Origin: a virus
Strand: one strand, 5' to 3'
DNA length: 50,880 bases
Virus record (IMG/VR): IMGVR_UViG_3300007276_000068
Span: 1 to 50,880 of that record
The translations under genes were made by a program, and so were the position numbers. Numbering within the stretch: the first letter of the stretch is position 1; each line of letters begins with the position of its first letter. The notes under the pieces are model-generated. The model searched no databases. It was not told where the DNA came from and was given only the letters and a program-made list of their open reading frames with translations. Below, in pieces: positions 14 to 48,492 of this stretch.

Positions 14-1171
14 CTATTTCTTTTTCGCTTTCGATTTTCCCGATTTCATGTTTGCTAACCAATGTGCCATCCTTTGCTTTTCACCACTTGAACTCTTAGC
101 AGTTTTCCTTAAACTGCTAACACTTGCTTTGGTATTTACACCACTGCGCTTTGCTAGTCCTTTTCGTCCTGGATTTTTACCATCTGCAAAGTTTTCTTCT
201 ATAGGACCTGCACTTATAAATCTATCAGCATTAACAGGATTAGCTATTAGTAAATGTCCAGTATCACTGTATGCTCTGTATATTTTGTCTTTGGGTTCTA
301 TCTTAAATGAAATTTCGTCTCCAAACCAGCCTCCTGATTTAGTACTAACAAAAATACCTTTTGGTGTACGCCAATCTTTACCTGCTCGTAAATCAAATAG
401 GGCAAACTCGCGTTCTCCCGATGTGTCGGCCCTTGGTCGAAGACCTCCGGACTGTAATATATTGTTTAGTTTTTTAGTTTGATGATAAACTACAGTTCCG
501 TTTAATTTGTTTCGATCTTCAGGAGATAATTCAAAAACATTAAGACCTACAGTATTCCCTGGCGGCGAAATAACATTTCCTCCTTTTTTATCTTTAGCAA
601 AGTTTTCTGCTAGTGTTGCCACTTCATCAGGTTCAACAGCATATTTTTCAGAAAATATTCTAAAGTTTTCTTCCATGATAGCCAACCCTGGATCAGGTTT
701 TTTAATATCGTCTAAACTGTGCCCGCCCTGAATAATTGACCATTCATATGCAGTATATCGTGCTTCTTCTTTAACTACACGAGTTCTAGTCGTAGGAGGA
801 ACTCCGTCTTTTGTGACAGAGTTTCCAAATTTCGCGGCTTGTGTTTTAATTTCGTTCGGGCCCACATCAACAGTTGTGTTAACTCCCTTTACAACTCTTC
901 CCCATTCATTTATCTTCGATTCATTCATGTATTTTTTTCGATACATTTGTTCTAGTTCTTTTGGATGAATAGCATTGCCTATCATTCGTCCGACATCAAA
1001 CGCATATCCGCCCAAGCTTTGGCGGTCTCCATCAGTTTGAACTAGTTCATGCATTTTGCTAAGAATTTTATCTATATATGCCTTTTCTCTTTTTTCCTGC
1101 ATTCTAGCAATTAATTCATCTCTAGATATACCTTCAAATAAGCTTGATAACATTAATTCATATATTTTCAT
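14..1171 (-). CDS. Putative head-packaged ADP-ribosyltransferase-like protein (385 aa)
   Basis: I do not recognise the full-length protein. Residues about 225-325 look like the core of an ADP-ribosyltransferase fold of the KptA/DarT/PARP type: a strand ending in VVYHQT, a helix with ILQSGGLRPRA, then GIFVSTKSGGWFG and a strand EISFKIEP. The His-x-Thr and the GIFVS element are the parts seen in that superfamily; the third catalytic position is unclear. The N-terminus, MKIYELMLSSLFE followed by G, resembles T4 internal-head-protein leaders (MKTYQEFIAE), which gp21 protease cuts after [LI]-x-E; LFE would be such a site. T4 Alt, an injected ADP-ribosyltransferase, is the precedent. The C-terminus is very Lys-rich. 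It is last in a leftward cluster of small proteins with similar leaders. The function is inference only. Confidence 0.5.
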   Translation of the reverse strand: MKIYELMLSSLFEGISRDELIARMQEKREKAYIDKILSKMHELVQTDGDRQSLGGYAFDVGRMIGNAIHPKELEQMYRKKYMNESKINEWGRVVKGVNTTVDVGPNEIKTQAAKFGNSVTKDGVPPTTRTRVVKEEARYTAYEWSIIQGGHSLDDIKKPDPGLAIMEENFRIFSEKYAVEPDEVATLAENFAKDKKGGNVISPPGNTVGLNVFELSPEDRNKLNGTVVYHQTKKLNNILQSGGLRPRADTSGEREFALFDLRAGKDWRTPKGIFVSTKSGGWFGDEISFKIEPKDKIYRAYSDTGHLLIANPVNADRFISAGPIEENFADGKNPGRKGLAKRSGVNTKASVSSLRKTAKSSSGEKQRMAHWLANMKSGKSKAKKK

Positions 1172-1180
1172 ATTACATTC

Positions 1181-1657
1181 CTACCATTTGCGGCAACTCC
1201 AATAGCGTGCCTTTGTTCTAGGTCCAGGATTGTCACAATTATGTCTTGCACGAAAACTCTTTCGGCGTGCTGGATTAGACTTTTTAATACGCATGGTTGG
1301 ATCGCCAAAATTGACTTTTTTAACATTGCCAGTACTTGGGTCTTTTACATATACTTTAAATTTTTTAACATCACCCTGCATTGGCTTACCAAGTTGCACA
1401 TTGCGTCCTTGATATTCTGCTTCATCTATAATTTCGTCTTCATTAACCCATAAATCACCATATGCTTCATAAAAGTCATCACCATCATAAGTTTCCTCGA
1501 TGGCATTTTCTTCGTCACTCGTGTCTCCAGTAACTTTATATGTTTTATTACCAACAGTAAATGTATCAGATCCTGCCTTAATAGCATTCATACGAGCATC
1601 AGTGAATGGATTTGACTCAACTTGATGATATTTGGAATCAATTTCATTTATTTTCAT
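1181..1657 (-). CDS. Conserved T4-like marine phage protein with Arg/Cys-rich C-terminus (158 aa)
   Basis: The last 45 residues (FGDPTMRIKKSNPARRKSF, then RARHNCDN and ARYWSCRKW) form a module I know as a recurring C-terminus in marine T4-like phages, usually beside head genes; its function is not known. The two cysteines and the many Arg/Lys suggest nucleic-acid or metal binding. The first 70 residues are acidic and probably disordered. The N-terminus MKINEI resembles the leaders of its neighbours. It overlaps the upstream ParB-like gene by 4 nt, which indicates translational coupling. Confidence 0.7.
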   Translation of the reverse strand: MKINEIDSKYHQVESNPFTDARMNAIKAGSDTFTVGNKTYKVTGDTSDEENAIEETYDGDDFYEAYGDLWVNEDEIIDEAEYQGRNVQLGKPMQGDVKKFKVYVKDPSTGNVKKVNFGDPTMRIKKSNPARRKSFRARHNCDNPGPRTKARYWSCRKW

Positions 1658-2163
1658 AAGTATTTTTCCTCGAGATAATCTAGATCAATCACTTCAGCTT
1701 TTATTTGCTTTTCGCCTCTAAGTCTCGCAGCTAGTACAGCATGATGTCCGTCTCTTATAAAAAAATGATCAGCAAACTTAATAACCACTATATCCTTAGA
1801 CGAAGAAACTTTTTTCTTTAATATCTCTCGATCTTCTATTCTTACAAATGGTTGAGTGGCACTTAATTTATTAATTGGCAAAGATTTTATTGATTTGGCT
1901 TCATTATCTAGTTTTAATCGTACTTTAACTCTGTCAGCTGCTGACAAATTGTAGAAATCGAAAGATTTATATACATCGTTAAAGACTGACTCCATCTCAT
2001 TTACCCAATCGTCGTTATAACTTTTTAATGGAATATAATCTCCCGGCACAGTATCACTTGAGTAATACCCGTAGTCTTTTTCTGTCCCGTATCGTTTTCC
2101 GACTCGATTTGCTAGATTTATAGGATTAATCTTTCTTTCATCTAATATATCTCTGATCTTCAT
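1654..2163 (-). CDS. ParB/sulfiredoxin-fold-like small protein (169 aa)
   Basis: Residues about 105-162 resemble the ParB N-terminal nuclease-like fold: a hydrophobic strand (IVVIKFADHFFI), the turn RDGHHAVLAARLRG at 137-150, then a strand KAEVIDLD. DGHHR-x-x-A-A is the usual signature of this fold; here the Arg is replaced by Ala (DGHHAVLAA). Family members bind nucleotides, hydrolyse CTP or cut DNA; which of these applies cannot be read. The N-terminus MKIRDILDE fits the capsid-targeting-like pattern (L-x-E at 7-9). It overlaps both neighbours by 4 nt. Confidence 0.65.
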   Translation of the reverse strand: MKIRDILDERKINPINLANRVGKRYGTEKDYGYYSSDTVPGDYIPLKSYNDDWVNEMESVFNDVYKSFDFYNLSAADRVKVRLKLDNEAKSIKSLPINKLSATQPFVRIEDREILKKKVSSSKDIVVIKFADHFFIRDGHHAVLAARLRGEKQIKAEVIDLDYLEEKYL

Positions 2164-2387
2164 TTTTTACGACCTCTAAATCCTTGGGGCATGTTCATCT
2201 GACCATGCATCTTTGGTAGACCAAACCAGAGCTCAAACCATTCTTTATCACCTGGTTTTATATTTTGCTCACGTTCTTTTTTACGATTGGCCGTTGCAGC
2301 ATCGCTGATGTTTTCCAAAGTGTATTCAGTATATCCTTTGAATTCATTTACACCAGCAAGTTTTTTGATATATTCCAGTTCATCCAT
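2160..2387 (-). CDS. Small conserved phage protein with EWFELWFGLP motif (75 aa)
   Basis: A small protein of a type common in marine T4-like phages: a short helical N-terminus ending in LAGVNEF, a charged linker, then the conserved PGDKEWFELWFGLP and a basic tail (GFRGRKK). No enzymatic motif is visible. G-V-N-E could be a prohead-protease-type cleavage site by analogy with its neighbours, but this is weak. It overlaps the nucleotidyltransferase gene by 8 nt and the ParB-like gene by 4 nt, so it lies inside one translational unit. Confidence 0.65.
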   Translation of the reverse strand: MDELEYIKKLAGVNEFKGYTEYTLENISDAATANRKKEREQNIKPGDKEWFELWFGLPKMHGQMNMPQGFRGRKK

Positions 2388-2961
2388 GATACAACTCCGT
2401 CTCTACACCCATGCCATTGCGCACAGCATCGTACATGGTCTTTGCTAGCTTCTTGTTGGGCACACCTTGTACAAATGTTTGAAAGTCACCACTTGCAGCA
2501 GCCGCTCTGAGCTTACTAGCACTTATGCCAGCCGCATCATCTGAGTCTGGATCACGTTCGCCTGCACTTACAACTTGAATACTTTTAAAATTGTATTCTT
2601 TTCCATTGTAATCACCGATTAATTTTTTAAATTGTTCTAACCTATCACTGCCTGCCACGAATACTATATTGTCGTATCCCAGTGATTCAATTTTTTTAAG
2701 TGCTTGAATAACCGTTTTGACATTTTGATCGCCTACATTAACTGTGGGGAAAAATGATTTAACAAATTTTAATTTGGTCGGAAAGTCCAATGGATCTGTT
2801 TTGGGCTTTTGTGTATGACTTAAAAAAATATAAGAGTCGCCTGGAATACTATGAATTTTATCTGCAAGTTTCTTATGGCCAATTGTTGGAGGATTCATTC
2901 TTCCAAATGCCACTACCGCAGTTTTGTTCTTTTGTTTTTCAAAGACTTCTCTTAAAAACAT
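2380..2961 (-). CDS. Nucleotidyltransferase, cytidylyltransferase-like/NMNAT superfamily (193 aa)
   Basis: Clear HIGH-type nucleotidyltransferase. It has the N-terminal AFGRMNPPTIGHKKL with the TxGH motif at 26-29, a central VFVAGSDRLEQF, and the C-terminal signature GISASKLRAAA at 145-155, equivalent to ISSTxxR. Such enzymes join a nucleoside triphosphate to a phosphorylated small molecule (NMN, phosphopantetheine, glycerol-3-phosphate); the substrate cannot be told from sequence. Stand-alone copies are common in marine myoviruses. The leader MFLREVFEK, ahead of the first strand, resembles the leaders of the other genes in this cluster and may be removed if the protein is packaged. Confidence 0.85.
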   Translation of the reverse strand: MFLREVFEKQKNKTAVVAFGRMNPPTIGHKKLADKIHSIPGDSYIFLSHTQKPKTDPLDFPTKLKFVKSFFPTVNVGDQNVKTVIQALKKIESLGYDNIVFVAGSDRLEQFKKLIGDYNGKEYNFKSIQVVSAGERDPDSDDAAGISASKLRAAAASGDFQTFVQGVPNKKLAKTMYDAVRNGMGVETELYHG

Positions 2962-3293
2962 TAATAAATTCCCTTGCGAACATTTGTCATTTCTTCAGAG
3001 TAAATTTTTTGCAATAACGCTTTGCGATCGTTGTCATCCATAATTTCGTCTGGACGTTTTGGAATATTAAACTTAATGCAATATGTTTTGGTAGCTTGAT
3101 CAATCATTTGTCCAAAATGTTTTTCAGGGTTGATTTGCTTCTTTCCTTTGACCATATCACGCATTCTGGTCATTGCTGGGAAGAAATGTTTTCTATAAAA
3201 CATAGGATCATTGCGCATGAAAACTGCAAGGTCATCAACTACATCAAATGGCAAACTGTCATCAACGGGCTTATCAAAATCTTCTATACGCAT
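2961..3293 (-). CDS. Conserved T4-like phage protein, unknown function (110 aa)
   Basis: Recognisable as a widespread marine T4-like protein from its N-terminal RIEDFDKPVDDSLPFDVVDD and the following FMRNDPMFYRKHFFPAMTRM. It is mostly helical and has no membrane segment or catalytic motif. In related genomes it sits next to the nucleotidyltransferase, as here, where its stop meets the start of that gene (shared base 2961). A GAGGAA ribosome binding site precedes its ATG. Confidence 0.75.
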   Translation of the reverse strand: MRIEDFDKPVDDSLPFDVVDDLAVFMRNDPMFYRKHFFPAMTRMRDMVKGKKQINPEKHFGQMIDQATKTYCIKFNIPKRPDEIMDDNDRKALLQKIYSEEMTNVRKGIY

Positions 3294-3296
3294 AAC

Positions 3297-3536
3297 TTAT
3301 TCCTCGTCCATTGATATTTCGATATCAAAATCTTGATATCCTTGTTCAAACATATACTCTGCTAATCTGTTTGCATATTCATCTGATTCATCATCATTTA
3401 ATGCTCTTGTTAGCGCAATTTCTATAACAGGGGCACCTGAGGTAGTTTCTAAAAATTGCTGTTCAGGAAAAATAGATTCATCAAGTTTTTCAACTTCATC
3501 AAGTTTTTCAAAAATAATTCTTACAAAATGTTCCAT
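3297..3536 (-). CDS. Small acidic protein, unknown (79 aa)
   Basis: Not recognised. It is acidic, with an N-terminal helix (VRIIFEKLDEVEKLDES) and a C-terminal half reading ANRLAEYMFEQGYQDFDIEI, which looks like an alpha/beta mini-domain. It is separated from the gene below by 3 nt and shares its operon. IIFE at 7-10 could be a prohead-protease site by analogy with its neighbours, but support is thin. Confidence 0.6.
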   Translation of the reverse strand: MEHFVRIIFEKLDEVEKLDESIFPEQQFLETTSGAPVIEIALTRALNDDESDEYANRLAEYMFEQGYQDFDIEISMDEE

Positions 3537-3885: not shown

Positions 3886-4590
3886 CTAGTATTTATCAAT
3901 ATCACCTTTGTAAACTAATTTCTCTATGCGCCTAATGTTTTTACTAATATACATTTGCACCATCAACAATACCTTTTCATCTCTTACATAAAAATATGCG
4001 TTGCCATTATACATCGAGTGCTTGATATTGCCCAGTGTGTAAACTCCTACTTTACTTTTGTCATTGTTTACTTCTAACCAGGAGGCAAAACTTGGATCAC
4101 ACTTTTTGTTGTTCAAATATATTTTGAATTCCATATCTGGTGGAGTATCAACTAAAACAACATCATGTTTTAATGACAAGAACTTCAGCATTTCGGGCTG
4201 TGGTTTCCATAATTCAGCACCAGAAGATCTAAACTTTTTAGCAATCCCGTTTGCAAGATCCAAGTCATTCGTTGCAATACTTAATGTATTTTGTTCACAT
4301 CGTATTCTATAATCATCAGTAGTTTGTTTTAATAAAGAATATATGTCCATTGCATCCAAAAAATCAAATTCACTGATTGTTTGCTTGGTTCGATATAATT
4401 GCCTCACCAAAGGTTGGTTTCTTTCGTACAACCCATTAATTTCATCCAACACGGACTTGGCAAATGAAAGAGTTTTTGTTCTTTGATTGCTGGTTCTAAA
4501 CGCATACGCAAGCGTACTGGGAAGTACTATTTTGTATAAGTACTTCCCATAGTGTAGCTTACGAGTTTCACGCAGTTTCAATGATTTCAT
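3886..4590 (-). CDS. Conserved marine T4-like protein, unknown function (about 234 aa)
   Basis: A protein family I recognise from marine T4-like phages without known function. Its blocks are LHYGKYLYKIVLPSTLAYAF near the start, DPSFASWLEVNND near residue 165, then NAYFYVRDEKVLLMVQMY and IRRIEKLVYKGDIDKY at the end. No nucleotide-binding or catalytic motif is evident. The start is either a GTG at 4599 or this ATG; both lie inside the 3' end of the clpA-like gene, and neither has a strong ribosome binding site. It ends 1 nt before the ATG of the next gene. Confidence 0.7.
   Translation of the reverse strand: MKSLKLRETRKLHYGKYLYKIVLPSTLAYAFRTSNQRTKTLSFAKSVLDEINGLYERNQPLVRQLYRTKQTISEFDFLDAMDIYSLLKQTTDDYRIRCEQNTLSIATNDLDLANGIAKKFRSSGAELWKPQPEMLKFLSLKHDVVLVDTPPDMEFKIYLNNKKCDPSFASWLEVNNDKSKVGVYTLGNIKHSMYNGNAYFYVRDEKVLLMVQMYISKNIRRIEKLVYKGDIDKY
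3890..3897 (-). promoter_or_regulatory. Late promoter element GATAAATA, 5 nt before ATG
   Basis: Minus-strand GATAAATA followed by CTAGC and the ATG at 3884. In T4 the TATAAATA element occupies about -13 to -6, so transcription would start at the A of the ATG. The element lies inside the last codons of the upstream gene. Confidence 0.5.
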
Positions 4591-6808
4591 GTGGCTCACA
4601 CTTTAAAAATAGTTGTTCATCTTTGATGTCAACTGTCATTTTTCCACCATTTTTAAGATTACCAAACAGTATCTCTCTTGACATTGGGCGCTTGACCTCT
4701 TTATCAATAACACGTTGTAGCGGACGGGCACCCATTTTTGGATCAAAGCCCTTGTCTACAAGATAATCCAATGCTTCATCAGTTACTGTAATTGAAATAT
4801 CCTTTTCCTTGACCATGTTTTTAAGCTCTAGTAGGAACTTACCAACAATTTTCATCATTACTTCTTTGCTCAGCTTGGCAAATGTAATGGTTCCGTCAAG
4901 TCTATTACGGAATTCTGGAGAGAAGAACTTCTTAAGTTCAGCATCTTCATATTGCCCTTCAAGAGAACTCCCAAACCCAATGTTATTCTTCTCTGCTGCC
5001 TTGGCTCCGAGATTGGTTGTTAGGATAAGTATACAGTTGCGAGCATCTGCTTCTTTACCATTGCTACCAGTTACTTTGCCATTATCCATTACTTGAAGAA
5101 GAATGCTACTTACATCAGGATGTGCTTTTTCAATTTCATCCATCAACAATACGCAATTGGGATTTTCTTGAATCTTTGTGATAAGTTGTCCTGCATTGTC
5201 TTCATGACCAACATACCCTGGAGGAGATCCAATCAATTTACTGACGCTGTGCTTCTCCTGGTATTCACTCATATCAAAGCGTACGAGTTTTACACCCAAC
5301 TGCGAAGCCAGTTGTTTTGCAGTTTCAGTCTTTCCTGTGCCAGTTGGTCCCATGAATACAAAACTTCCAACTGGTTTATCATCAGGCTTGAGACCTGCTT
5401 GACTTACTAGAATTTTATCCACAATGCTTTCAATTGCACTGTCCTGACCGTATACAACTTTCTTGAGATTTTCTTCAAGCTTTACAAGATTGTCAGTTTC
5501 TTTTTCTGCAACTTGTTCAGTTGGAAGGTTAATCATTTTTGCAAGTTCAAACTGGATTTCTTTCTCAGTAACAACTTTATTTTCGGTTTGCTCATTGAGT
5601 TTAAATCTAGAACATGCAACATCAATTAGGTCAATTGCTTTATCAGGAAGCTTTTTGTCAGTTTGATATTTTACACTGAGCTTAACAGCAGCGTTGATTG
5701 CATCCTGAGTAATTTCAGTATTATGATAGTCTTCATAATACGTTTTAATACCAGTTAAGATATCCTTTGTAACTTCAGGAGTGGGCTCTTCAACAGTAAC
5801 ACGTTGGAATCGTCGCATAAGAGCACGATCCTTTTCAAAGTACTTGCGATATTCTTCCCAAGTAGTTGATGCAACAACCTTTAAGTCGCCTTTTGTAAGT
5901 GCTGGTTTAAGCATGTTGGCAAGATCATTGCTTCCAGCTTGACCACCTGCACCAGCACCATTCATCATATGTGCCTCGTCAATAAACATAATAGTCTTAC
6001 CTTTCTTGGTAAGTGCTTGCAACACAAGTTTAAAACGTTCTTCAAAGTCACCACGATACTTGGATCCAGCAAGCATTGCACCAATATCCAGGTTGTATAC
6101 TTGGTATTCTTGTAGGAACGATGGAACATTTCCGCTGACAATGTTATATGCCAAGCCTTCAGCAATTGCTGTTTTGCCCACACCAGGGTCACCAACCAGC
6201 ATTACGTTGTTTTTGCTTCTACGCCCCAACGCCAGTGCAACTTTGTCAAGTTCCTCACTGCGTCCAATAATAGGATCGATTCGTTTGTTCTTTGCTTGGT
6301 CATTAAGATTAACAGTAAAGCTTTTAAGTGCTCTACGTGCATCAGCGCTGAGTTCTTCTTCAGCAATTTCACCTTCTGCTTCTTCATTAATAAATTCTGC
6401 AAATTTTGTTTTGTCAATGTTTGCTTTATTCAAGAAGTATACAGCAATTGAACGTTTTTCAGTAAGAAGACTTACTAATACGTCTTCTACTTGTATATGA
6501 CTACGTCCTGCAAACAATACTTGTGTGAACGCTCTGTTAAGAACACGTTCAACTGTTTGTGTTTTCTTTGGTTTTAACTTTTCTTGATCAGTTTTGATAT
6601 CATCTGAGTTATTCTTAAGATGATACTCAAGGTTTGTTTTAACAAAGTCAACATCAGACCCATATGCAGTAAGCATATTGACAAAGTTGTCTTCGCATAA
6701 CATTGCGTAAAGCAGATGTTCAAGTGTAACATACTCATGCTTGAGTTTTTGTGCATCTTTGACAGCTTTGTCAAAAACTAATTGAAGCGCTTTAGACGGT
6801 TCTACCAT
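4568..6808 (-). CDS. clpA: ClpA-type AAA+ unfoldase (746 aa)
   Basis: A full-length ClpA-type protein, close to the E. coli ClpA length. It has a Clp N-domain (residues about 1-140), AAA-1 with Walker A GDPGVGKT (206-213) and DEAH (277-280), and AAA-2 with Walker A GPTGTGKT (487-494) and DEIE (557-560), plus the ClpB-small C-terminal domain ([18 protein letters not shown]). The region between the AAA modules is short, so the ClpB middle domain is absent. An IGF tripeptide at 610-612, before [11 protein letters not shown], sits where ClpA carries its ClpP-docking loop (IGL), so it could dock a host or phage ClpP. It probably remodels or degrades host or phage proteins. It overlaps the DnaJ-like gene by 17 nt. 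Confidence 0.93.
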
Positions 6809-7640
6809 TTATTGTATTTTCCTCTATATTTTGTTTTAGTTCTGATAGTTTTTGTAAAATTTCTGTGTCATCTATCTTTGGAATAACTGTTTCTATTTGA
6901 ACATACAAGTTGCCTCGACGTTGTGTATGTATATCAGGTATTCCATATCCAGTAATACTCAGAATGGTTCCAGGTTTTGTGCCTTTAGGGACTGTAAGTT
7001 TTACTTTACGATCATCTAACGTCTCTATTACTATAACACATCCTAATAGTAAGTCAAACACATTTATCGTTCGTTTGGTTGCTATATTATTCATGTCTCT
7101 GACCCAATCAGGATGATCATTGACTACAACTTTAATTAACAAATCGCCTCTGGGCGCATTGGTATGTGAATCATCACCAAGCCCTTGATACCGTATGTTA
7201 TCACCTGTCTTTGCACCTGCAGGAATATTTAAGTTAATGTTCTCAATGCTTCCGCTATTTAAATTGTATCTCAAATTGGTTTGTTTGCCAGTGAATACGT
7301 CCTTAAGGTCAACAGACACCCTAAGTGTTATATCTCTATTTCGTTGCATCCTGCTCTGTCCGAATCCTTGAGAAAACATATTACTGAATATAGACTCAGC
7401 AAAGGTGTTGCTTCCTCCTCTAAAGTCAGAAGAATTGAAATTAAAATGTGTATGAGGATTGTCGTGTTCTTGTCTTTTATCAGGATCTTTGAGAATTTCA
7501 TAAGCTTCATTCAATTGCTTAAATTTCTCAGGATCGCCACCTTTGTCAGGATGGTGTTCCATCACTAGTTTTCTATATGATTTTTTGATATCTTCTTGTG
7601 TTGCAGTGCGTTCAATGCCCAGTATTTTGTAATAATCCAT
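6792..7640 (-). CDS. dnaJ: DnaJ/CbpA-type J-domain co-chaperone (282 aa)
   Basis: J-domain at 1-65 with the HPD motif at 30-32 (HHPDKGG). A short Gly/Ser/Phe-rich linker follows ([20 protein letters not shown]), then two beta-domains like the DnaJ C-terminal substrate-binding region ([19 protein letters not shown] and [19 protein letters not shown]). The CXXCXGXG zinc repeats are missing, making it class II like CbpA. It would stimulate a DnaK ATPase and hand over clients. The stop lies inside the clpA-like gene, implying co-expression. A clear ribosome binding site is not seen. Confidence 0.92.
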
Positions 7641-19417: not shown

Positions 19418-22400
19418 TCATACATTGAATTGATAATTTGCGAATAATATATATTGCTCTTGGTTAGTTCCTTCAGATCGCTTTACAATATAACGATCAA
19501 TTTCAAAATTTATAGACTTGACATCAAAGTTTGAATTTTTTATATTTAATAAAATACCATCAGCTGTTCCTGGTTTACAATAACATACTGGAATAGCTGA
19601 CACAAAATCCAATTCCTGATATCCAGCTTGGGGAGTTCTCATCCACAGTGGTAAATACTCTCGTTCTCTATTACCAACCTGCTTGATATTATCACGCATG
19701 TTGTTAATACTACTAATATATCTTTTCTGATCTTTTGCATCAGAAACTTTAACTGCATCACTATCTGTTTTTATTGTATTCGTTGTAGGCCGATGTCTCT
19801 GCGGCTCACTATCGCTTAATGCCAATTCTACAGTTATAACTCCATCACTTCTAACATCAATTGTGAAATCATTGTTATCAATATCGAAGAATATGTCACT
19901 ATTTCTAGTTTCCATTAAGAGTTTACCACCATCAGGGAAAAGAAATCTAACAGTTTGTCTACCATATATTGGAAGCTCTGTTCCGCCTAGCCCCAATTTG
20001 GTGAAATCATCCTTTGCTGTATATTGAATACTGTCAACTGTAATTTTATTTGTCGTTGAAATGTTAAAATTATTTCTAGTTTTCCCAATCTTTGCATTAG
20101 CTGGATCAATCACGTCAATATAAATTACTTCATAAACAGTGTCAGTAGTACCAGGCTGTCTTGCAATTGCTTTTTTAAAATCACCTAATATATATTTTTT
20201 ACGTTTATGATTTTTTGCCGCTGCACTAACAAATTTGTCAATACTTTTTGCTTCAATTCCAGCATAAATTAGCATCTCAATCTGTTGTTGAATTCCAAAT
20301 TCTGGATCATCTGGTCTATAGATATAATCATGTGGAAATGTATTTGAATTAATAACAAAATTCTTATAAAGATCTCTTTGCTCAGGTACTAGCATCGGCC
20401 TTGCTACAATATCAGTATATTGAGTGTTGTCCAAGTCAATTACATCTAGCACAAATTCCCGTTCGATTGCTGTATAATTGAATCTATCTTTAGCTTCTAT
20501 AGTAAATCTGTATTGTCTATCAAATGTTGTCTCTCCAGGGTTATTGCCATCCCATGCTACAGTTTTATTATCAAATGTTGTAAGACCAAGTGTAGTATCG
20601 TCGGCAAATTGATTAGCTGCCCCAACAATTTCACCTGAGTATGTTAAGCTCATACCATATGGTAGTTTGCCATCTACCAATCGATAAAGCATTCGAGTGT
20701 CCGGGACTGTTGTTTGGGCTTCAACTTTCAAAGTACTTGTATAATTTGCATTAATACTTCCCAAGTATGAGTCAGTCAACCATTCAATGTTGGTATCAAT
20801 TTCTCCAATAACGTTAACTTCAAATGTTTTCACACTGCTTGGTAAATCAACAATGTCAGTACTTGAAATTAGAATATCTTCATAAAAGAAGTCATTCTTA
20901 AATAACGCAATTCCAGTATTTCTACCCTGTTCTAGTTGTCTTAATAACGTAGCTGAGTTAGCGAATTTTATACGATCTTCATTGTCACGTAGTAATGTCA
21001 CTACTACTGGAGAAGCACTAGCTGAATTGGCAAAGAAGTCTTTGATGTTTGTTATAATTCTTGAATCAGAAGTACTTCTCAGTCTTATTTTCCATAAGTT
21101 TGTCGCAATAACTTCAACATATGCATTTCCGCCAAATTCAGCTTCCAATGCTTGTATTGTTGCCGTTACACGGTCATCCAATGGAACACTTTCCAGTGAT
21201 TCTGCAATTTCTTCCCAATCGCTTGAGTTGATATCAACATCAATTTGTATAACGCCATTGACTTCGATTGGGGTGTTTTCTATGTCTAATTGTGGTTGAA
21301 TTATTGTAAACGAATCACCTACATATTTGTATATTTTATCATTACCACCAACTTCTTCAGTATATATAACGTATACATTTGGATCAATTTGCTGGTAAAC
21401 AGTTAATGATATTGGTGATCCTTGTGGTAAAATTGGATCACTGGTTGATAACGGTTGTTCAATTTGATATTCAATATAAGGTATAATTTCACTAATAGTA
21501 TAATATTCAGTATCAGTAAAGTTTAACTTACTGCTCTGATATTTTTCTTTTTCATTTTCTGAAAGTCTGTTAACGAATATTTCTTCGTCACCAACGTCAG
21601 CAGTTCTACTAAGTATTAATGAAATTTTTGGTGCAAGAGTTGAGTCAATGTGAATTACATCATAATCAGCGTTAGAATCATCCACTAGAATAACTTTATA
21701 AATTCCGTTGTTGATTAAAATGTCTCTGCCTGAAAGTTCATATAAATCATTGATGCCATCAAGTGTGCCAGTCAAATCTATTTTATATACTTTAAAACTG
21801 GTTTTACCCAATAATACGTCTTCATAAAAAGTTGCATATATTGACAGTGTGTCCAAATCACCAGTGTCCCTGGTCGCTTTAACAGTAAACTTGTAATTTT
21901 CTGTAATAGCAGGCTGATAAGGAATACGTCCATAAACTTCACCAGTATTTCTGTCAAGAGTCATTCCTTTTGGAAGTTCACTTATACTACCATCATCATT
22001 TAAGTTTTCTAAAGTATAATACACTGCGCCACTTAGTGTTTCATTATCTATTATTTCTAAAAATAAAGTTTGGTAATTATTTGCACGACGAAATCCTAGA
22101 TCTGTAGGCGTAATCCATTTGGGAGTTCGTATATGGGTGTTATCAGCTCTGAAAACTCCAGTGCTAACTGACATTATGGTGTTATCAGCTCTTAAGTAAT
22201 CATCACCGACCAAATATATTTTAAATTCTCTTCTAACAAATGTGTCACCATCTGTTACTGTAACTGCAAACGGATAATACCTATTTAATTTTTTAAGACT
22301 TTGAGAGTTATAATATATACTTTGTGCGTCAGCATAGTCAAAAGGTATTTCACCATAGGGCTGTGCATCGTAGCCGCCATCTTGATAGCGTTGATCAAGT

Positions 22401-24915: not shown

Positions 24916-27900
24916 TTAATGTTTGCCCACGACAACTTCAATGATGCCGCGTTCTGTATCTGTTTTATTTTCAAGTGATTTTCCAATAACTGTGCCAGCA
25001 GTTGGGGTATTGTTTACACATGCAAACCCTGGGATAGCACTGGTAACTAGAATATCACCTTTTTCTACTTTTCCAACAACTTTACATGGAACACGACCTT
25101 GAAGAGCAACTCCTATAACATGATCACCTGTTAATGCACTGTTCATCAAGTGTGCTGGATTAGTCGTAACAATACCTGCAGCACGGTGATCGTTCTTTCT
25201 AGCTGTTTGAGTAACTTCAAATTCACCACCAAATACCAAAACAGTTCCCGGTTCATAATCAGCATCGCCCAAATAGTTTTCTGCAAGGTCAGCATAATAT
25301 GCTTGTGTTGCAGTACCACTGAATAATGTTGCATATACAGTATTCCACACCAAACTACTTGAGCCTAGATTTCTAACATTTGAAGAACTTGGTACTATGT
25401 TGGTATTGAGCCTTCCAGAAAAGCTTATAGTATCAGTTGTTGCGTTTCCAAATGTGGTATTTCCACCAAACTGTGCAGCCCCATTTACAGCAAGATCTCC
25501 AGTGACGGTTAACGAATCAGTGCTTGGATTATAATATAACCCAGAATCAGTATACAGCAGTTCAGCAGTTGACGAAGTATTATTTGAATCAACAAATGTT
25601 ATATAATGATTGGAGTTAATAGAAGTTGAAACTGTTTCTACTTGAGTTGCACTGCCACCAATTGCGCCAACAAACTCATTAGCATAAATTTTATCATACT
25701 TGAGGGTGTCACTTCCAATATTATAAACATCTGGAACATCTGGAAGAATCGCAGTTTCAGTTACTTTGAACGGCATACTTCCCCCAACTACCAATCCAAT
25801 TTGGTCAGCAATTGTAAATCCATTGTTTGCACCCAATGCTATACCAGTTGAATTAACATCACCTTCACCATATGCTTCAATAAATGCAGTTTTGATCCAA
25901 CTTGCACCAATTCTACTATTATTGGCCAATGGAGAGTTTGATTGGAATATGGTTTGTGTAACACTTGAACCATCAATTGACAAACTTCCAGGAATATTAA
26001 CAGTTGGATCAGTGCCACCAGTTGCAGTGAGCACAACCCCCTGTGCTGGAGTTTTCATTATTAATTGAGTACCAGATAATGATAAGATTTCGTAAGTAGA
26101 ATCAGACCCTAATATCAAGCTGTTTGCTTGAATACTACCATTTGACCTAGTTTTTACTATTTTACTATTTTCACCAATTATGGTAGTCTGCTCAATACTA
26201 TATGTATCAGTTCCAGTTCTACTAATCATCCCGAGGATTGTTCCTGGAATATCAGTGTGCATGATTGCACCACCAGCATCGGCAATTGTTGAGAATGATA
26301 TTTCACTTACACTGCCAGTTCCAGCGGCACTTCTGCCAAGAACAGTTCCAGTTGATATTTGTTGTATTTTGGAAATTGTAATACCATTATCTTTTACACT
26401 TACCCAACCGTTTGTTGATTCAAATGCTACGCTATCAAATGCTGCCAAACCAAGATCATTTTGTGTTATGCCACTTGCTGATGTTAAGTCTGCCGCGGCA
26501 GAATTCATTGATAATTTACTTTGCACTATTCCTGCAGAAGCGTTAATATCAGAATTAACAATAGTATTTGCTTTAATACCAGCATTTAGTGTGATGTATC
26601 TGTCAGTAACTTCGCCAGCAACAATAGTTATTACTCTGTCAGTTGTTACTTCTATATCGCTTGCAGCATCCCAGATTCCATTTGCCCATTCTGCATAAGG
26701 ACCATCGATTACCAGTCCAGAAACTCCACCACCTGTAGTAATAGTGTCCTGACCAGCACCCACATCATCACCTGCACTAAATGCACCCGATGTTGCAGTA
26801 TAAATGATGTTAACAAGATCACCGCGATAATCCTGCGCAGTATATACATCAATAATTGTACCAGTTGCACTACTTTCTGATCCGGTAATAACATCACCAA
26901 TGTTAAACTCTCCGCCCACTATAGTGGTGGCTTGTATGACAATTTTAAATTTACCTGTTGACACTAGTAGTTGGTCATTTTCTAGGTTATTAATTTCGAC
27001 ATCTTGTAATGATTCAATTGTTGTAACAACAGTATCTCTGATATTATCAGCATAATCTTTAGTTGCGGCATCTGATCCCTGAACTGGTGCCGCCAAGTTA
27101 GAAACTGTATTTCCGTTAGCATTTAAATTACCAGTCATTGGTGTAGATCCAGACAGTGATAATGCACCTGATCCTATCTTATTAGCAACAGGTATATCGT
27201 TAAGATCAAAACCCAATCTTCTGTTTACATATCCTCTGACAGCACTTTCCGTAGGAATAGTATCAGTAGCGTTGTCACCCATTGAACTATCTGTTGAGAA
27301 TTCTGAAATAACAACTCCACGCTTAAATCCAAGTCCATCAACATCACTGAGTGCAAGACTTGCACTAAATGTCACAGTTCCTGTTCCTTGATCGACACTA
27401 AAGAATCTACCCACACGGAAAATACCATCTTGGTCAGTACTCACATAGAAAACTCTTCCCTTTCCACGCTCATCAACCTCATTGGCTTGATCTGCTTCTC
27501 TTGGTGCACCGTATATAACATTTGGATAATTGGATTGGTTAAATCCGCCAGTTCCAACTTCCAGGAAATCATGGCTTGTAGCACGACATGTTGATATATT
27601 TTTTGTCACATCACCCAATGCACCTGCTTTTAATCCTGCTCGCAATGTGATAGTTTCAGTGCCACGAATTACTGGACTTTCCAATCCAGTAGCAGCAGTT
27701 GTTTGATTGATGTCTTCTCCAACTTCTGCAATCTCTACTATAGCATATGCATTGTCTTCAGCAATTGCAATAATATTGTCATCACTATCCACACCTTGAT
27801 AGTTGAACACATAATGTTTTTTTCCGCCCCATACAAATATAGGTGCTTCTTCAGTTAATGTATCCACAGTCCAGCCAGCAGGTCTGTTAGCCTCAGGAGT

Positions 27901-30900
27901 TCTAGTATTATTATTTAAGCGATATATTTCATTAAAATCTGCGCTAGCAATTACTGCAATAACATCATCACCAATTGTGGCACCTTTGGTTGTTCCACCA
28001 GCACCAGCTAGTGCAGTTTCAGCAGCTCTAACTGGATCAACGATCAATCTTATATAATCGTAACTGCTATCCAAACCAACTTGTAAGGCATCAGCAGCTA
28101 AATCATTTCCAATACTGTCACTACTTAAGAAACTAATAGAGCGATAAACAGTATCTGGGCTTTCAGCAAACACAACCGCAGTACTTGGACGGATAGTTAA
28201 TGAGTTTATTTCTGCGATGTCAGATATAATATGTGTTTGGTTTCGACGGTAGTTAATTATTTCTCCCCAAGGAACAGTTGCCAAAAGTCCATTAATACTA
28301 AACTGAGCATCTGTTGTAGTGAAGTTTAACTTGTATACGATACCACTATATTTTGGAGTTGAAGGATCAACTGCTATTGTACCTGCAACACTTGCTCCTG
28401 TAATAACACCTGCAGTCACTTCAGTAACGGTAATAACAGCATCGTTAGTTAATGTTACACCACTTAAAAGTGAACCATCAACAGTAATAGTATCGTTAAC
28501 AGCATAGTCAGTGCCACCACTTTCAATATTTACTGTATATCCGTCAGCAATAGTTTTATATATACTGAACACGGCTCCTGCTCCAGCTGTTGAAACAGTT
28601 GTTGCTGGTATTACATCATTGATTGACTGGAATCGTCCTATATGAATACCTGAAACACTTACACTTGCGATTTCGTAACGTGCAAATGATGGACGTGATG
28701 GATGCCACACATCAATTTCTGATCTGTTTGACGGAGGATCTATCATATCATATGCGTGTATATACAAAGATTCCACTGCGTTATCATAACCAGTGTTGTC
28801 AACATCATAAGGGACGCTGTTGGCTCCAAGTGATACTGATAATACTTCAATTTCGTCACTTGTATTAAAAATACCAGTGGTGTTTATCAAATATACAACA
28901 CTGCTTCCATTTGCACCCGTGCTAACTGACACTGTACCAGTAGCACCTGACGTTTGTTGTACTAATACATCATCTGCATCCACGACCACTGGACCTGCTA
29001 GATATAAGACACTATCAGATGAGACAGTTCTAGCTGACATCACCATGTCTTGCCCAAGAACAACTGCATCAGGTACTTCATTTGGATCAGCACCTTCTGC
29101 GATCAATCCATATTCACCATAGCACGAGCTACCAGTAAGTGAACGAATCTGTGAACCATTTAATGCATAATAACTGGTCCAGCAATAATATGTAAACATA
29201 CTAACGTTTTCAGATAATGCACCGTTATTACACACCAACCCATACCCCAAATCATTGATTTGAGTAAAGTCGTTTGCCAGCATACTTCTGTTACCAGCTG
29301 TTTGAATCGTTATGTCAATTGGTGATGTAAAATCATCAAGATCTACACCAGTTGACAACGAACTAGTTACCCCAGTAAATCCTGTACCACCATTTGAATT
29401 ACTTGATAATATAAGTTCTGCAGTTCCCAATTCAGGATCGTATGCACTTATGACATCAATTTGGAAACGTCTTCCATCGATATAAAACGGGGAAGGAGTT
29501 TGTGGTTTTCTTAAAAATAGACCTTGATTTGGCAAACTTGCCACGCTCAGTCTAAATGGGTTCCCATCAACTCTTTCAATAACTTGTACGGCTGAGTTTC
29601 CAGTAAACGCATCAATATACAAACCACCACGGAATGCCTGACGATTTAAACTTTTAGAAAAACTGGAACCAGTTTGTATATATGGTGATTTTGTTAATAT
29701 CTGGCCGTCAGGGTCAAGTACACACATAAATCCACCGTGACCTTGAACTGTTAAATTACGGATAATAGTTGCATCGTTCATCAAGAATACATCCATATCA
29801 TCGTTGGATTTTGGAGTACTATCTGGATCAGTTGGATCAGTCAAATAGTGATATCCAAAATATCCATCCACTGTTTCAGTTAATGGATTAGTAAATGCAA
29901 CACCGTCAGATGCAATAGTCAAACCGTCAAAGACTGCATCTCTGTAGAAAAACGATTGCGAGTATCTTGATTCAGAAACTCCTGCTTTTGGTCTAATAAT
30001 GCATCTTCTAAATTCATCACCAACAACTGATACGTTTTCACTTATTTTAATTGGAAGATGTTCTTGGTATATTCCCGATTCTACAAGAATTGAAATTTGC
30101 TTGTTTTTAACCAAGTTTCCATATTCTAATGCTTCACCATCTAAAAATTCAATAGGTTCCAATAGTTGTACTTCAATTTCATCAGTTCCTGGTAATGTAA
30201 CTGGAGTTCCGCCATCTTCTGCAAGGTATTCTATAATACGGCCAATTGCTCCAGATGTTTTACCTCTGATTACTTTTCCAGGAATAATATCTGAAGATAT
30301 AGGAGTTGCTTGGTCAATAAACCCAGTTCCGCCATTATCAACATTTACCCTATAGTTTCTAGGACCGTCAGCAACTGGTGGACTTAAAAATACACCAACA
30401 TTTATAATATCAATAACTATATTTAATTTTGCAGTTAGTACACTTTCAGCATTTGCATCAGGATCAAGGCTTAAATTTTTATATTGCAAAACAGCATCTT
30501 GATATAACACTGGTAAATCAGTACTAGATATTATCAATGGCAATATTGATTTTACATAATTTATTGCCGCAAGTGTCTCTGTTCTTTGAGTAGTAATTGC
30601 TCTAGTTGAACTTGGGTTTGAATAATATCTAATACCAGCTTGTCGTGAAAGATAGTTTGCATTGTCACCCATTAACGAATCAAGTGTTATCGACTCTAGT
30701 ATATAATCAATATCACGTTCATAAGTTTCAGTATCGTATAAAAAATCTGGATAGCTATCGTTAATATAAGCAATAACTTCTTTTTGTATAAATTCTTTAT
30801 TCTCAACCACCATTGCTCTGGCATTTGTACGGCCAGCAGGAGGCGCATCAGCCCCAGCACCAGATACTACACCATTAGAAGCGCCCGCATTGTATGTCAT

Positions 30901-46487: not shown

Positions 46488-46772
46488 TTACCGTTTTACC
46501 ATAGCACGGCGTTCTTCCATTGTCAATGGCTCTTGTGGTGTTTGTGTCCAATGAGTTGTGTCCCAGCGCCTGCGCTGATTTTCCTCGTAGGTCTCTTCTT
46601 TACTCAGATACTCCCCACTCCAACTATCTATCACATCTGCCATTTCCAATAGTGATCCTATCACATTTTTTCTGTCTGCCCAGCCATATTCCAGGGCAGA
46701 GTTTGATCTGCGATCATTTAAAAAGTTTGCACGGTCACGCATCGCCTGTGCCAGGCTTTTAGTAGTATCCAT
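46488..46772 (-). CDS. Small hydrophilic protein, unknown (94 aa)
   Basis: Helical and charged: TTKSLAQAMRDRANFLNDRR, VIGSLLEMADVIDSWSGEYL and a basic end (EPLTMEERRAMVKR). No family recognised. It overlaps the upstream gene by 14 nt. Confidence 0.58.
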   Translation of the reverse strand: MDTTKSLAQAMRDRANFLNDRRSNSALEYGWADRKNVIGSLLEMADVIDSWSGEYLSKEETYEENQRRRWDTTHWTQTPQEPLTMEERRAMVKR

Positions 46773-47022
46773 ATCTATCTTCTTCTTCTTGTGCTACCAT
46801 CATTAGTTTACCAGGAAACATCAGATGTAATATTGTATCCTGTTTATCACTTGTGGTAGAAATAAAAACATCAGCAAAGAGTAAAACTTTTTGAACACTC
46901 CCCGTGATATCATACAAAGTTTCTGGTTCAGACTCTGAAATTTTTACAGCAATGTTTGCAGCCTGTAATTGACGTACTTGAGCGTTATTAATAGTGTCAA
47001 ATAAACGCCAATGTTTGATCAT
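46759..47022 (-). CDS. Small protein, unknown (87 aa)
   Basis: Start at ATG 47022 (MIKHWRLFDTINNAQVRQLQ): a GGGGA Shine-Dalgarno, made of the terminal codons TGG-GGA of the upstream gene, lies 6 nt before it. An ATG 12 nt upstream is poorer. The body reads VQKVLLFADVFISTTSDKQD and ends in acid plus EEEDRYGYY. Not recognised. Confidence 0.58.
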   Translation of the reverse strand: MIKHWRLFDTINNAQVRQLQAANIAVKISESEPETLYDITGSVQKVLLFADVFISTTSDKQDTILHLMFPGKLMMVAQEEEDRYGYY

Positions 47023-47339
47023 TGTGTTCCCCATTTTAATATAAAAAAGTGTGCATCAGATTCATTTTCAAAATACCAGTAATGTCCAAAACAGTGGTAG
47101 TTGCCTTTGATGCTTCTGTCACGCCATTCTTGAGGAATATCATTCCATCTATTAACTGTCACTTTATGCCAGCCCTGACTGTCCAACAAACTTGACATTA
47201 TCTCATTGTCTATCTCTTGTTGAAGAATTTTAGCAAGATTGTCTTCAATCTCAGATGTTATATCTTGAGCCGTTTCAATAGTATATGTTGCATTTAATTT
47301 TCTAGTTTTTGCCTCTACCACTGTCTTTACCATCTTCAT
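47019..47339 (-). CDS. Small protein with gp23-like segment and FxLKWG tail (106 aa)
   Basis: Residues about 6-47 (VVEAKTRKLNATYTIETAQD, then a short gap and AKILQQEIDNEI) resemble the T4 gp23 segment VIEAKSRQLKAAYSIELAQD...LATEIMLEINREV, with about 13 identities in the first 20 positions by eye. This is a capsid-protein segment out of context. The C-terminal half differs and ends FENESDAHFFILKWGTQ, the tail shared with its neighbours. It overlaps the next gene up by 4 nt. Function unknown; a decoy, regulator or assembly factor could be imagined. Confidence 0.65.
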   Translation of the reverse strand: MKMVKTVVEAKTRKLNATYTIETAQDITSEIEDNLAKILQQEIDNEIMSSLLDSQGWHKVTVNRWNDIPQEWRDRSIKGNYHCFGHYWYFENESDAHFFILKWGTQ

Positions 47340-47611
47340 GCTGTTATCCCATATTTGAGTAAAAAGAAAGTAAGACGTTTGTCATCGCCTGAGAACTTGA
47401 GGTAGCGTTTACCTTCTCGCTGAACCACAGTAAACCCCTGACCATACAACCAATCTTCAAATCGCTGATTGTTAAAGTTACTGCGATATTCACGCTGGTA
47501 ATTCCTATGTCGATCCCAATGACTAGGAACAAAATTACTATCAAGACGTTGTCTATCTTTGATCAACCACTGGGTATAGATCTGATCTAAATATGTTGGC
47601 TCTAGCAACAT
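47336..47611 (-). CDS. Small protein of the F-x-L-[RK]-W tail group (91 aa)
   Basis: Ends in KRYLKFSGDDKRLTFFLLKY, then GITA, a variant of the common tail. The N-terminal part is Arg/Asn-rich (HWDRHRNYQREYRSNF) followed by RFEDWLYGQGFTVVQREGK. No capsid-like segment is visible. Its last codons (TAT-GGG-ATA) place GGGA before the next ATG. Function unknown. Confidence 0.62.
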   Translation of the reverse strand: MLLEPTYLDQIYTQWLIKDRQRLDSNFVPSHWDRHRNYQREYRSNFNNQRFEDWLYGQGFTVVQREGKRYLKFSGDDKRLTFFLLKYGITA

Positions 47612-47612
47612 G

Positions 47613-47831
47613 TTAACTCCACTTCAATACGAACCAAGTGTATTTTGCCTCGTTTTCAAACTCAATCGACCATCCGTCTTCAAAGTTTCCCCGCACTCTA
47701 TCAGATCCTGTTTCACGATATAACCAGTTTAGAAAAGATAGCTGACTATTGCCTTCATCATGATTAATCCAAGCAGTAATCAGCGGATGCTGACTAACGC
47801 TGTGATATGATGACGGGATACGATATTTCAT
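47613..47831 (-). CDS. Small protein of the tail group, ends WFVLKWS (72 aa)
   Basis: Start at ATG 47831 (MKYRIPSSYHSVSQHPLITA), preceded by GGAG that is the TGG-AGT of the upstream gene's Trp-Ser end. The body has SFLNWLYRETGSDRVRGNF and the end IEFENEAKYTWFVLKWS. No catalytic motif. The end again supplies GGAG, 6 nt before the next ATG. Confidence 0.62.
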   Translation of the reverse strand: MKYRIPSSYHSVSQHPLITAWINHDEGNSQLSFLNWLYRETGSDRVRGNFEDGWSIEFENEAKYTWFVLKWS

Positions 47832-47833
47832 TC

Positions 47834-48085
47834 TCAACTCCATCGTAAGATAAACGCAGTATAATGCTTCTCACTTTCAAAGTCAAGATACTTCCAAGCC
47901 GTTGAGCCACTGCCGTTACGTGGGGATATATTGTACTTCTTTTTCCAATTGTATTCCAAAACATTCCAATATCGTCGAGGTGCAGTGCGTGAAAGATGAG
48001 CAGCACCCCCCAAACTAAGAACCAATGCCTCGTGGGCACGATGAAATTGTTGCGTTACGTCTACAATGGGAACTCTATAGGTCAT
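47834..48085 (-). CDS. Small protein of the tail group, ends AFILRWS (83 aa)
   Basis: Start at ATG 48085 (MTYRVPIVDVTQQFHRAHEA), overlapping the upstream stop (ATGA). It contains AHLSRTAPRRYWNVLEYNWK and the end LDFESEKHYTAFILRWS. The source of the N-terminal part is not recognised. Confidence 0.62.
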   Translation of the reverse strand: MTYRVPIVDVTQQFHRAHEALVLSLGGAAHLSRTAPRRYWNVLEYNWKKKYNISPRNGSGSTAWKYLDFESEKHYTAFILRWS

Positions 48086-48492
48086 GACCATCTTAATGCA
48101 AAAAGAGTTGCATCCCTGTCATATGCAAAAACAAATCTGGTGTTGATCATTACAAATGATCCAGGCTTGAGGTTAGCCGTACACCAACGTTTTGCTGGAA
48201 TGGCATTCATAACTGATACTGTAACTAAAGTATATCCTAATTTAACAACATCATCAATTTTGTGATATGTTTTACGGTTATAAACTCTTAAGAAATGTTG
48301 ATAATGTACTTTTTTCATTTTTAAATGATCCAATGTCCAGTTAGAATTAAAAATTTGGCCAACTGGTCCTGTCATAGGTTGCACACCGATGAGATTGCTA
48401 GCAATGATGTTGGGCATTACACGTCGGATCATTGGCAATAACACCTGTGCAGTTGCAGTTACAGCAGCAGCTTGAGATTGATTGTACATCAT
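48082..48492 (-). CDS. Small protein with gp23-like segment and FALRWS tail (136 aa)
   Basis: From the chosen ATG at 48492, residues about 8-48 (AAAVTATAQVLLPMIRRVMP, NIIASNLIGVQPMTGPVGQI) closely resemble the conserved N-terminal gp23 region (GAVTQIGPAVMGMVRRAIPN, LIAFDICGVQPMNSPTGQV in T4), about half identical by eye. No other part resembles gp23. The C-terminus (SFVMINTRFVFAYDRDATLF, ALRWS) carries the group tail. A longer start at 48522 would overlap the upstream gene by 34 nt; the ATGA overlap at 48492 is preferred. Confidence 0.7.
   Translation of the reverse strand: MMYNQSQAAAVTATAQVLLPMIRRVMPNIIASNLIGVQPMTGPVGQIFNSNWTLDHLKMKKVHYQHFLRVYNRKTYHKIDDVVKLGYTLVTVSVMNAIPAKRWCTANLKPGSFVMINTRFVFAYDRDATLFALRWS

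Follow-up and report, generated by a model that had tools for sequence, protein, structure and literature searches.

Results

Gene block and leader matches in the window

The window, by which we mean the whole stretch of DNA analysed, is a 51-kb fragment (50,880 nucleotides) whose source is a marine T4-like phage. The block at its start comprises seven ORFs, six of which had been assigned capsid-targeting-like leaders in a preliminary description; every N-terminus quoted there was present, on the minus strand. The genes and features are as follows, with a slash marking a predicted cut.

14-1171, minus strand: 385-aa fusion protein with leader MKIYELMLSSLFE/G, an insert of ~75 residues, a GRVVKGVNTT module, an ART-like domain and a basic C-terminal ENFADGK module
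1133-1171, minus strand: codons for the leader of this 385-aa protein (residues 1-13; Glu13 precedes the predicted cut)
182-604, minus strand: ART-like domain (residues 190-330), from fold comparison of an AlphaFold model
17-202, minus strand: basic C-terminal module ENFADGK...GEKQRMAHWLANMK (residues 324-385)
1181-1657, minus strand: 158-aa protein with leader start MKINEI (codons 1640-1657), no obvious cut Glu and a conserved basic C-terminal module; phrog_7595
1654-2163, minus strand: 169-aa weakly ParB-like protein with leader MKIRDILDE/R (codons 2137-2163)
2160-2387, minus strand: conserved 75-aa protein, within the block but leaderless
2380-2961, minus strand: 193-aa cytidylyltransferase with leader MFLREVFE/K (codons 2938-2961)
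2961-3293, minus strand: conserved 110-aa protein that starts MRIEDF and has no cut Glu
3297-3536, minus strand: 79-aa acidic protein starting MEHFVRIIFEK, a separate N-terminal family

A ribosome-binding-like sequence was found ahead of most block genes, and no late promoter TATAAATA was present directly before the block (three in the whole window vs. 4.9 by chance). Starts of the form M[KR][hydrophobic]x[polar][hydrophobic] occurred in four of the seven ORFs (14-1171, 1181-1657, 1654-2163 and 2961-3293); with the rate taken from outside such clusters, the chance of at least four was ~1e-7. When the leader motif was searched over the 81 genes called in the window, its four matches all fell within the block, in line with the clustering described earlier, and equally tight clustering was obtained in 18 of 20,000 shuffles.

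A [hydrophobic]xE site followed the leader in 14-1171 (LFE/G, residue 13), 1654-2163 (LDE/R, residue 9) and 2380-2961 (VFE/K, residue 8), so that three of the six quoted leaders stood with both leader and cut site. Neither 1181-1657 nor 2961-3293 had a cut Glu close to its start, and the sixth, that of 3297-3536, is judged from its sequence to be probably not of the capsid-targeting type seen in the block. The 3297-3536 protein is strongly acidic and its family keeps MxHF(I/V)x(I/V); a cut-like Glu was present in 55 of the 77 proteins starting in this way, with D, N or Q in the rest. The form of the T4 capsid-targeting sequence (CTS), ~10 residues long with hydrophobics at T4 positions 4, 7 and 8 and Glu at the cut, was seen in MKIRDILDE of 1654-2163, was shorter in 2380-2961 (MFLREVFE), had longer spacing in 14-1171 and was incomplete in 1181-1657 and 2961-3293. 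A DNA search of the first 8 kb of the window against phage records gave clpA-like matches only, among the matches listed, and a PADLOC search of ten proteins gave no match.

Proteins behind the leaders

The bodies had been described as differing from each other, namely ART-like, ParB-like and nucleotidyltransferase. The last assignment was firm: 2380-2961 matched PF01467 at 25.1 bits (cut-off, 21), with a GRMNPPTIGHKKL motif, and phrog_3041 at 6e-54. In most of its relatives M[FLR]LRE[LI][FY]E/AP lies ahead of the first strand of the fold, and a few start without leader. The ParB-like assignment of 1654-2163 was weak, with a match to phrog_33277 (E 2e-4) and scores below the curated cut-offs of PF08857 (14.6 vs. 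23.6 bits) and PF23719 (19.6 vs. 27). An alignment-free single-sequence structure model of this protein was unusable, and no homolog was found among the loci compared except that of the same phage in L118. The ART-like assignment had support from fold comparison only. The AlphaFold model of the domain (pLDDT 68, pTM 0.63) gave a best VIA-align Z of 7.1 to Tpt1/KptA, followed by DarT1 and TreX, and the matches listed were mostly folds of the ADP-ribosyltransferase superfamily; Foldseek gave no significant E for the domain, and no solved structure was matched when the fusion protein was searched by sequence.

In homologs of the 385-aa protein, the leader is placed directly before GRIVKGVNTT (MRLREIFEDGRIVKG, L083) or, in L263 and L264, directly before the ART-like domain, and the ENFADGK module also stands alone behind a leader in relatives. 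Homologs of the 1181-1657 protein begin MKNFKEYLSE/S, MSKTFKDYLKE, MAKSFKQYLNE/A, MKINEFLSE/S and MKITEILTE/S. The 2160-2387 protein has homologs at the same place beside the cytidylyltransferase in relatives, and the family of 2961-3293 (n = 72) showed a leader start in 39 members and a cut-like Glu in 14.

Leaders in related phages

The corresponding locus of related phages was recognised through its cytidylyltransferase gene. Leaders were present on 22 of the 43 genes inside the locus and on 12 of the 1613 outside it. The leader patterns, which were composed after the data had been seen, matched 269 of 4336 N-termini vs. 76 of 19,858 internal Met contexts, a 16-fold difference. Among leader proteins, Glu occupied residue 8 in 41% (background, 4.7%), and Ala directly followed the leader Glu in 36% vs. 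7%. Leaders as a class are real and far above chance. At least one full leader was found in 78 of 1914 sequence families, and in 15 by majority. Single-linkage clustering merged unrelated bodies via shared modules and gave way to coverage-limited communities. Cytidylyltransferases occurred both with and without leader. The leader codons showed free synonymous variation, and on the sequence evidence the leader is conserved and selected at the protein level. Net charge per 100 aa was +2.2 for the bodies of leader proteins vs. -1.2 for other proteins, the former being basic as are T4 internal proteins. The narrow leader pattern had no match in HTVC008M or Melnitz; at the same place Melnitz has the T4-like variants MQGFKTFLSE/A, MKKFSEIIE/A and MKNFKNHIAE/E. 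A polymerase-like gene lies ~3 kb downstream of the locus in L118, and in pelagi- and methylophage relatives the locus lies between helicase and primase.

Protease, capsid protein and a shared junction

The gp21 family was found in 9 and the gp23 family in 10 of the 16 records searched, and long relatives encode both. In the 51-kb window, a gp21 gene was not detected, and gp23 was found as captured pieces only. The predicted cuts of the capsid proteins are RRYLAE/SATAGATSAG and RKWLNE/TAGAGATSAG. The small leader proteins MRLRELIE/TASAGATSAG and MKISDIVNE/TTTAGATSAG have the E/-TAGATSAG junction in common with their capsid protein, and the same phage on L118 has MKIIEITE/TTSAGSVASV.

Virion proteomes of relatives

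In S-CREM2 virions, a SAM hydrolase, a kinase, gp13 and a cytidylyltransferase were detected (PMC10665884 Table 3), and all four carry such leaders. Five S-CREM2 proteins (gp6, 13, 14, 136 and 154) both match the broad T4-CTS pattern and appear in that table; the virion list thus contains 5 of the 8 proteins matching the pattern vs. 21 of the 185 remaining non-structural ones (p = 0.0013). By the same table, three pattern proteins were undetected in virions, and many virion proteins are without the pattern. A shorter, looser pattern, with 6 matches in the virion list and 13 outside it (p = 0.28 across all proteins), loses discrimination, and the longer pattern alone was used as S-CREM2 evidence. 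The S-CREM2 authors allow for carry-over of proteins highly expressed in infection (PMC10665884).

The cytidylyltransferase S-SZBM1_140, listed as present in virions (PMC9146016 Table 1), begins MRFRQFIIE/A, and its DUF6267 neighbour is without leader and absent from the virion table of that paper. Likewise, the T4-GC190 cytidylyltransferase was detected in S-SM1 virions (PMC3037559), and its S-BM3 ortholog begins MKTLKFFLE/S. In these publications on virion-detected leader relatives (PMC10665884, PMC9146016 and PMC3037559), we found no report of processing after Glu.

Discussion

Probable head cargo and competing explanations

The block most likely encodes head-borne, host-entering proteins because unrelated neighbours have in common a short N-terminal tag, removable and of the type by which T4 loads proteins into its head. 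A block of T4-type leaders on unrelated bodies, as first described, is supported by the enrichment, the independence from the body, the cut signature, gp21 and gp23 of relatives, the junction found also in the capsid protein, and the virion mass spectrometry of S-CREM2 and S-SZBM1. We consider it quite probable that this is a head cargo locus, whose CTS-tagged bodies are cut by a gp21-family protease, kept with the packaged DNA and brought into the host. True members would carry an N-terminal CTS of 8-13 residues (Met, 1-3 residues, a hydrophobic, 2 residues, 1-2 hydrophobics, x-Glu) through which, as in T4, the protein would attach to the scaffold core while the prohead grows. A gp21-family protease (Peptidase S77) would cut after Glu, and the released body would stay beside the packaged DNA and enter the host at infection. 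Body swaps behind the tag would give each phage a different passenger set, which may include cytidylyltransferase, 5'-nucleotidase (NT5C), ART-like, ParB-like, DUF6267, amidoligase-like and many unknown proteins. For the window phage we infer packaging, cleavage, injection and activity of the cargo in the host, and the labels "effector" and "injected" given earlier to the block proteins are likewise predictions.

MKI and MKK starts are frequent in AT-rich phages, and some leader genes have modules in common and may be paralogs, which would suit shared N-termini that arose by chance, by composition (AT-rich start contexts favouring Lys and Ile) or by inheritance from related proteins. This explanation is very improbable and already contradicted by the data, given the 16-fold excess over internal Met contexts, the contrast between locus and remainder of the same genomes, the presence of the leader on unrelated bodies and its absence from some homologs of the same body, the sharp Glu peak and the Ala preference.

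The position of the locus near replication genes, outside the head gene block, would fit a leader that serves not head packaging but another purpose: it might tune translation, act as an N-degron or bind the protein to a cytosolic phage complex, for example the replication machinery encoded nearby. We regard this as unlikely, since the free synonymous variation speaks against an RNA-level role, the site of Glu followed by a small residue fits prohead-protease logic, virion proteomes contain leader-bearing relatives, and in two relatives leader genes lie near head genes (G004 130765-131592 and G003 27891-30867). Somewhat less probable still is a leader that only fine-tunes virion entry, with the proteins arriving instead via the tail or baseplate, through DNA binding by their bodies (which are indeed basic), or as the carry-over named by the S-CREM2 authors; against it stand the excess of leader-pattern proteins, relative to other non-structural proteins, in the S-CREM2 virion list and the fact that several independent phages have yielded the cytidylyltransferase in their virions.

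The tag mechanism is known from T4, and novelty appears to lie in the locus, its range of cargo and the variants of the leader. Coliphage T4 is the source of most injected phage proteins known. With a tag that can be read, the cargo in the heads of marine and freshwater phages not in culture could be predicted from sequence alone, and hundreds of genes of unknown function could be tested as injected proteins. It may also explain the recurring cytidylyltransferase, kinase and SAM hydrolase in cyanophage virion proteomes, which could otherwise be carry-over. A broader proposal, which we put forward tentatively and hold to be rather doubtful, is that, across a large aquatic group of T4-like phages, changing sets of enzymes are shipped into hosts from a dedicated cargo locus by means of one portable head-loading tag common to the whole family, and that the small leader proteins with a mature N-terminus copying the arm of the capsid protein itself (E/TAGATSAG) are a new class of capsid-arm mimics, active in the prohead or after injection.

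Comparison with known systems

The T-even internal proteins IPI, IPII and IPIII have a 10-residue CTS (PMC9026906, PMC3012670 and PMC12373910). As in these, the leader here is short and N-terminal, with hydrophobic spacing and Glu before the cut, one leader is found on unrelated basic bodies, and the accessory genes are clustered. However, the leader here is often two residues shorter (M[FLR]LRE[LI]FE/A) and nearer to the gp24 propeptide, the bodies include enzymes and multi-module fusions, and the locus adjoins replication genes; the bodies themselves were compared with those of T4 through family searches only. Among the T4 yardsticks (ipIII MKTYQEFIAE/A, gp24 MAKINELLRE/S and gp23 SFLTE65/A), the leader resembles the ipIII and gp24 propeptides, that of gp24 being closest to MKIRDILDE, MKISDIVNE and MKIHEILAE, although the gp24 vertex protein is a shell protein and no cargo.

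T4 Alt is a head-packaged ADP-ribosyltransferase cut at ITE-6 and LTE-619 (PMC5694885), and similarly a putative ART domain lies here behind a predicted cleavable leader. On the other hand, the ART-like domain had no match to the Alt family, its fold matches are modest and on the Tpt1/KptA, DarT and TreX side of the superfamily, and it is fused to other modules. The cytidylyltransferase/NMNAT-like protein of cyanophage virions (T4-GC190) is of the same enzyme family and begins with a leader of this kind in S-CREM2, S-SZBM1 and S-BM3; the accessible text of the publications lists it as a virion or metabolic protein and leaves the leader unmentioned. Finally, the polyvalent proteins of phages and conjugative elements are multi-domain, predicted to be co-delivered with DNA, and include ART and ParB-like domains (PMC5512222); the proteins described here are likewise predicted to travel with DNA and include putative ART-like and weakly ParB-like candidates. 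That class is set by domain architecture and not by a cleavable leader.

Composition of the proposed cargo block

The virus record spanned by the window comprises 50,880 bases and carries the T4-like genes for a clamp loader, PhoH and DNA ligase. Seven genes form one run on the minus strand at 14-3536, and the preliminary description took this block for a cluster with T4-like leaders, that is, short N-terminal capsid-targeting tags. The claim stood for part of the block, since leader and predicted cut site (written here as a slash) occur together in only 3 of the 7 genes. The others are as follows.

1181-1657, minus strand, leader start present without a cut site
2961-3293, minus strand, leader start present without a cut site
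3297-3536, minus strand, apparently a separate family
2160-2387, minus strand, no leader

L118, another contig from this virus population, overlaps the left end of the window (99.85% identity over 2720 bases) and extends past it. Upstream of the block lie genes for a ClpA/B-like ATPase (4568-6808) and a DnaJ-like protein (6792-7640), and this pair was seen at the same place in several relatives (L083, L089, L091 and L005).

Among the bodies proposed earlier, the nucleotidyltransferase proved firmest, gene 2380-2961 being solidly assigned from its sequence as a cytidylyltransferase. The ART-like domain of the 385-aa fusion (14-1171) gave a moderate structure model (pLDDT 68), for which VIA-align ranked Tpt1/KptA first (Z 7.1 and below), followed by DarT1, TreX and further folds of the ADP-ribosyltransferase type; these model-based matches are coherent, at a level below that excluding a common arrangement. 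The ParB-likeness of gene 1654-2163 is weak. The T4 IP and Alt proteins suggest, by analogy, that such cargo would most likely serve counter-defence or host modification in the host (PMC12373910, PMC5512222).

Distribution of the leader

Genes were called in related loci, six long relatives, HTVC008M and Melnitz-3, and a six-residue start pattern (M, K/R, hydrophobic, any, polar, hydrophobic) was scored. It matched 269 of 4336 distinct N-termini versus 76 of 19,858 internal Met contexts. The motif search across genomes bore out the association with the locus: in long contigs, where the locus was placed via its cytidylyltransferase gene and its exact borders were drawn by eye, 22 of 43 locus genes carried the pattern versus 12 of 1613 elsewhere. 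Within eight consecutive genes fell all 5 leader genes of the long relative G005 (181 genes in total) and 5 of the 8 in G003 (225 genes), and 0 of 20,000 shuffles were as clustered in either case. Among 374 distinct genes, chosen by a slightly wider start pattern, 41% had Glu as residue 8, against a background of 4.7%, and 36% had Ala directly after the putative cut, against 7%. Leader codons differ synonymously among relatives, indicating that selection acts on the peptide. In a validation set of 80 further loci, found with the window fusion protein, the pattern occurred on 15 of 46 ENFADGK-module proteins versus 73 of 634 others (p=0.0003), and many MRAxEF[IV]xE variants there were missed by it.

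The leader precedes unrelated bodies, including cytidylyltransferase, NT5C 5'-nucleotidase, DUF6267, amidoligase-like proteins and many unknown ones. Cytidylyltransferases that carry it have it ahead of the fold's first strand (M[FLR]LRE[LI][FY]EAP...AFGRMNPPT); the enzyme of a few relatives lacks it (MKKVVIAFGRMNPPT). In the 385-aa protein the leader is still N-terminal, about 75 residues ahead of a GRVVKGVNTT module that in relatives stands directly behind the leader, without this spacing. The ART-like domain recurs in loci L263 and L264 behind their own leader-like starts.

Virion proteins of cyanophages

Mass spectrometry of S-CREM2 virions detected a SAM hydrolase, an APH-like kinase, a cytidylyltransferase and small unknown proteins, with carry-over allowed for by the authors (PMC10665884). 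The three enzymes start MKDFDSFLEE, VKRFDAFLTE and MKNFSSFLTE, respectively, and two small virion proteins start MKDLHSFLTE and MNFSEFNE. The Cas9-like virion protein gp12 (OR473000 7704-10313) has a good leader, LRFASFMAE/A, 16 residues inside its annotated start. A broad T4-type pattern, composed after some S-CREM2 sequences had been seen, matched 8 proteins of the whole gene set, 5 of which (gp6, 13, 14, 136 and 154) are on the virion list, versus 21 of 185 other non-structural proteins (Fisher p=0.0013). Two further reports give the cytidylyltransferase in S-SZBM1 virions (PMC9146016), where it starts MRFRQFIIE/A, and the same enzyme group in S-SM1 virions (PMC3037559). The DUF6267 neighbour in S-SZBM1 has no leader and is absent from the virion list (PMC9146016).

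Protease and capsid junctions

No Peptidase S77 (gp21, prohead protease) gene was found in the 50,880-base window; among the 16 records searched, 9 had this gene and 10 a match to the capsid protein gp23. Predicted capsid cut junctions (RRYLAE/SATAGATSAG, RKWLNE/TAGAGATSAG, QKYLAE/AASAGATGAG) recur at the cargo locus, where some small leader proteins have them (MRLRELIE/TASAGATSAGSVAAVANP, MKISDIVNE/TTTAGATSAG). In the small leader proteins listed here (57-88 aa) the sequence past the predicted cut copies the mature N-terminal arm of the phage's capsid protein (TAGATSAG...).

L029, 13120-13293, small capsid-arm-like leader protein
L083, 12679-12897, small capsid-arm-like leader protein
L052, 17018-17284, small capsid-arm-like leader protein
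L118, about 2700-3040, small capsid-arm-like leader protein

In the S-CREM2 virion protein gp160 (OR473000 128342-129235), GATGFTGAAAPEGPVAGYDPLM closely resembles the capsid segment GADGFTGAAAPGGPNAGFDPVM past the predicted cut. Leader genes also lie near head genes in the long relatives G004 and G003 (MKISDITNE/S, MKVHQIISE/S). Directly upstream of gp21 is a 66-82-aa gene with a leader-like start (MILRELF, MRYKELKE or MILNEIYE), which may code for a core protein occupying the place of gp67/gp68.

G004, 137908-138156, gene upstream of gp21
G003, 21915-22163, gene upstream of gp21
L170, 127-327, gene upstream of gp21
L171, 247-465, gene upstream of gp21

No complete copy of gp23 turned up in the window. 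Its minus strand at 46759-49786 holds a run of small ORFs, at least four with similar hydrophobic-FxL(R/K)W(S/G) tails; in two ORFs (48082-48522 and 47019-47339) gp23 fragments are fused to this tail.

Comparison with T4

T4 ipIII starts MKTYQEFIAE/A, the vertex protein gp24 starts MAKINELLRE/S, and the gp23 propeptide ends in SFLTE at residue 65. Cleavage of gp24 after the Glu of MAKINELLRE is established for T4 and accords with the propeptides of 10-20 residues stated in PMC5694885. The window leader MKIRDILDE is closest to the gp24 type, and homologs of window gene 1181-1657 bear IP-like leaders such as MKNFKEYLSE/S and MSKTFKDYLKE. Melnitz leaders read MQGFKTFLSE/A and MKNFKNHIAE/E. The first ten residues of IPIII are enough for packaging, positions 4 and 7 serving targeting and 8 and 10 processing, as reviewed in PMC9026906, where the T4 mechanism was also proposed as a general route for loading varied proteins. 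T4 Alt is cut at ITE-6 (PMC5694885). Among open-access journal papers containing 'capsid targeting sequence', none of the titles and abstracts listed describes the marine cargo locus. The targeting mechanism itself is known from T4, and the marine locus looks like a new form of it.
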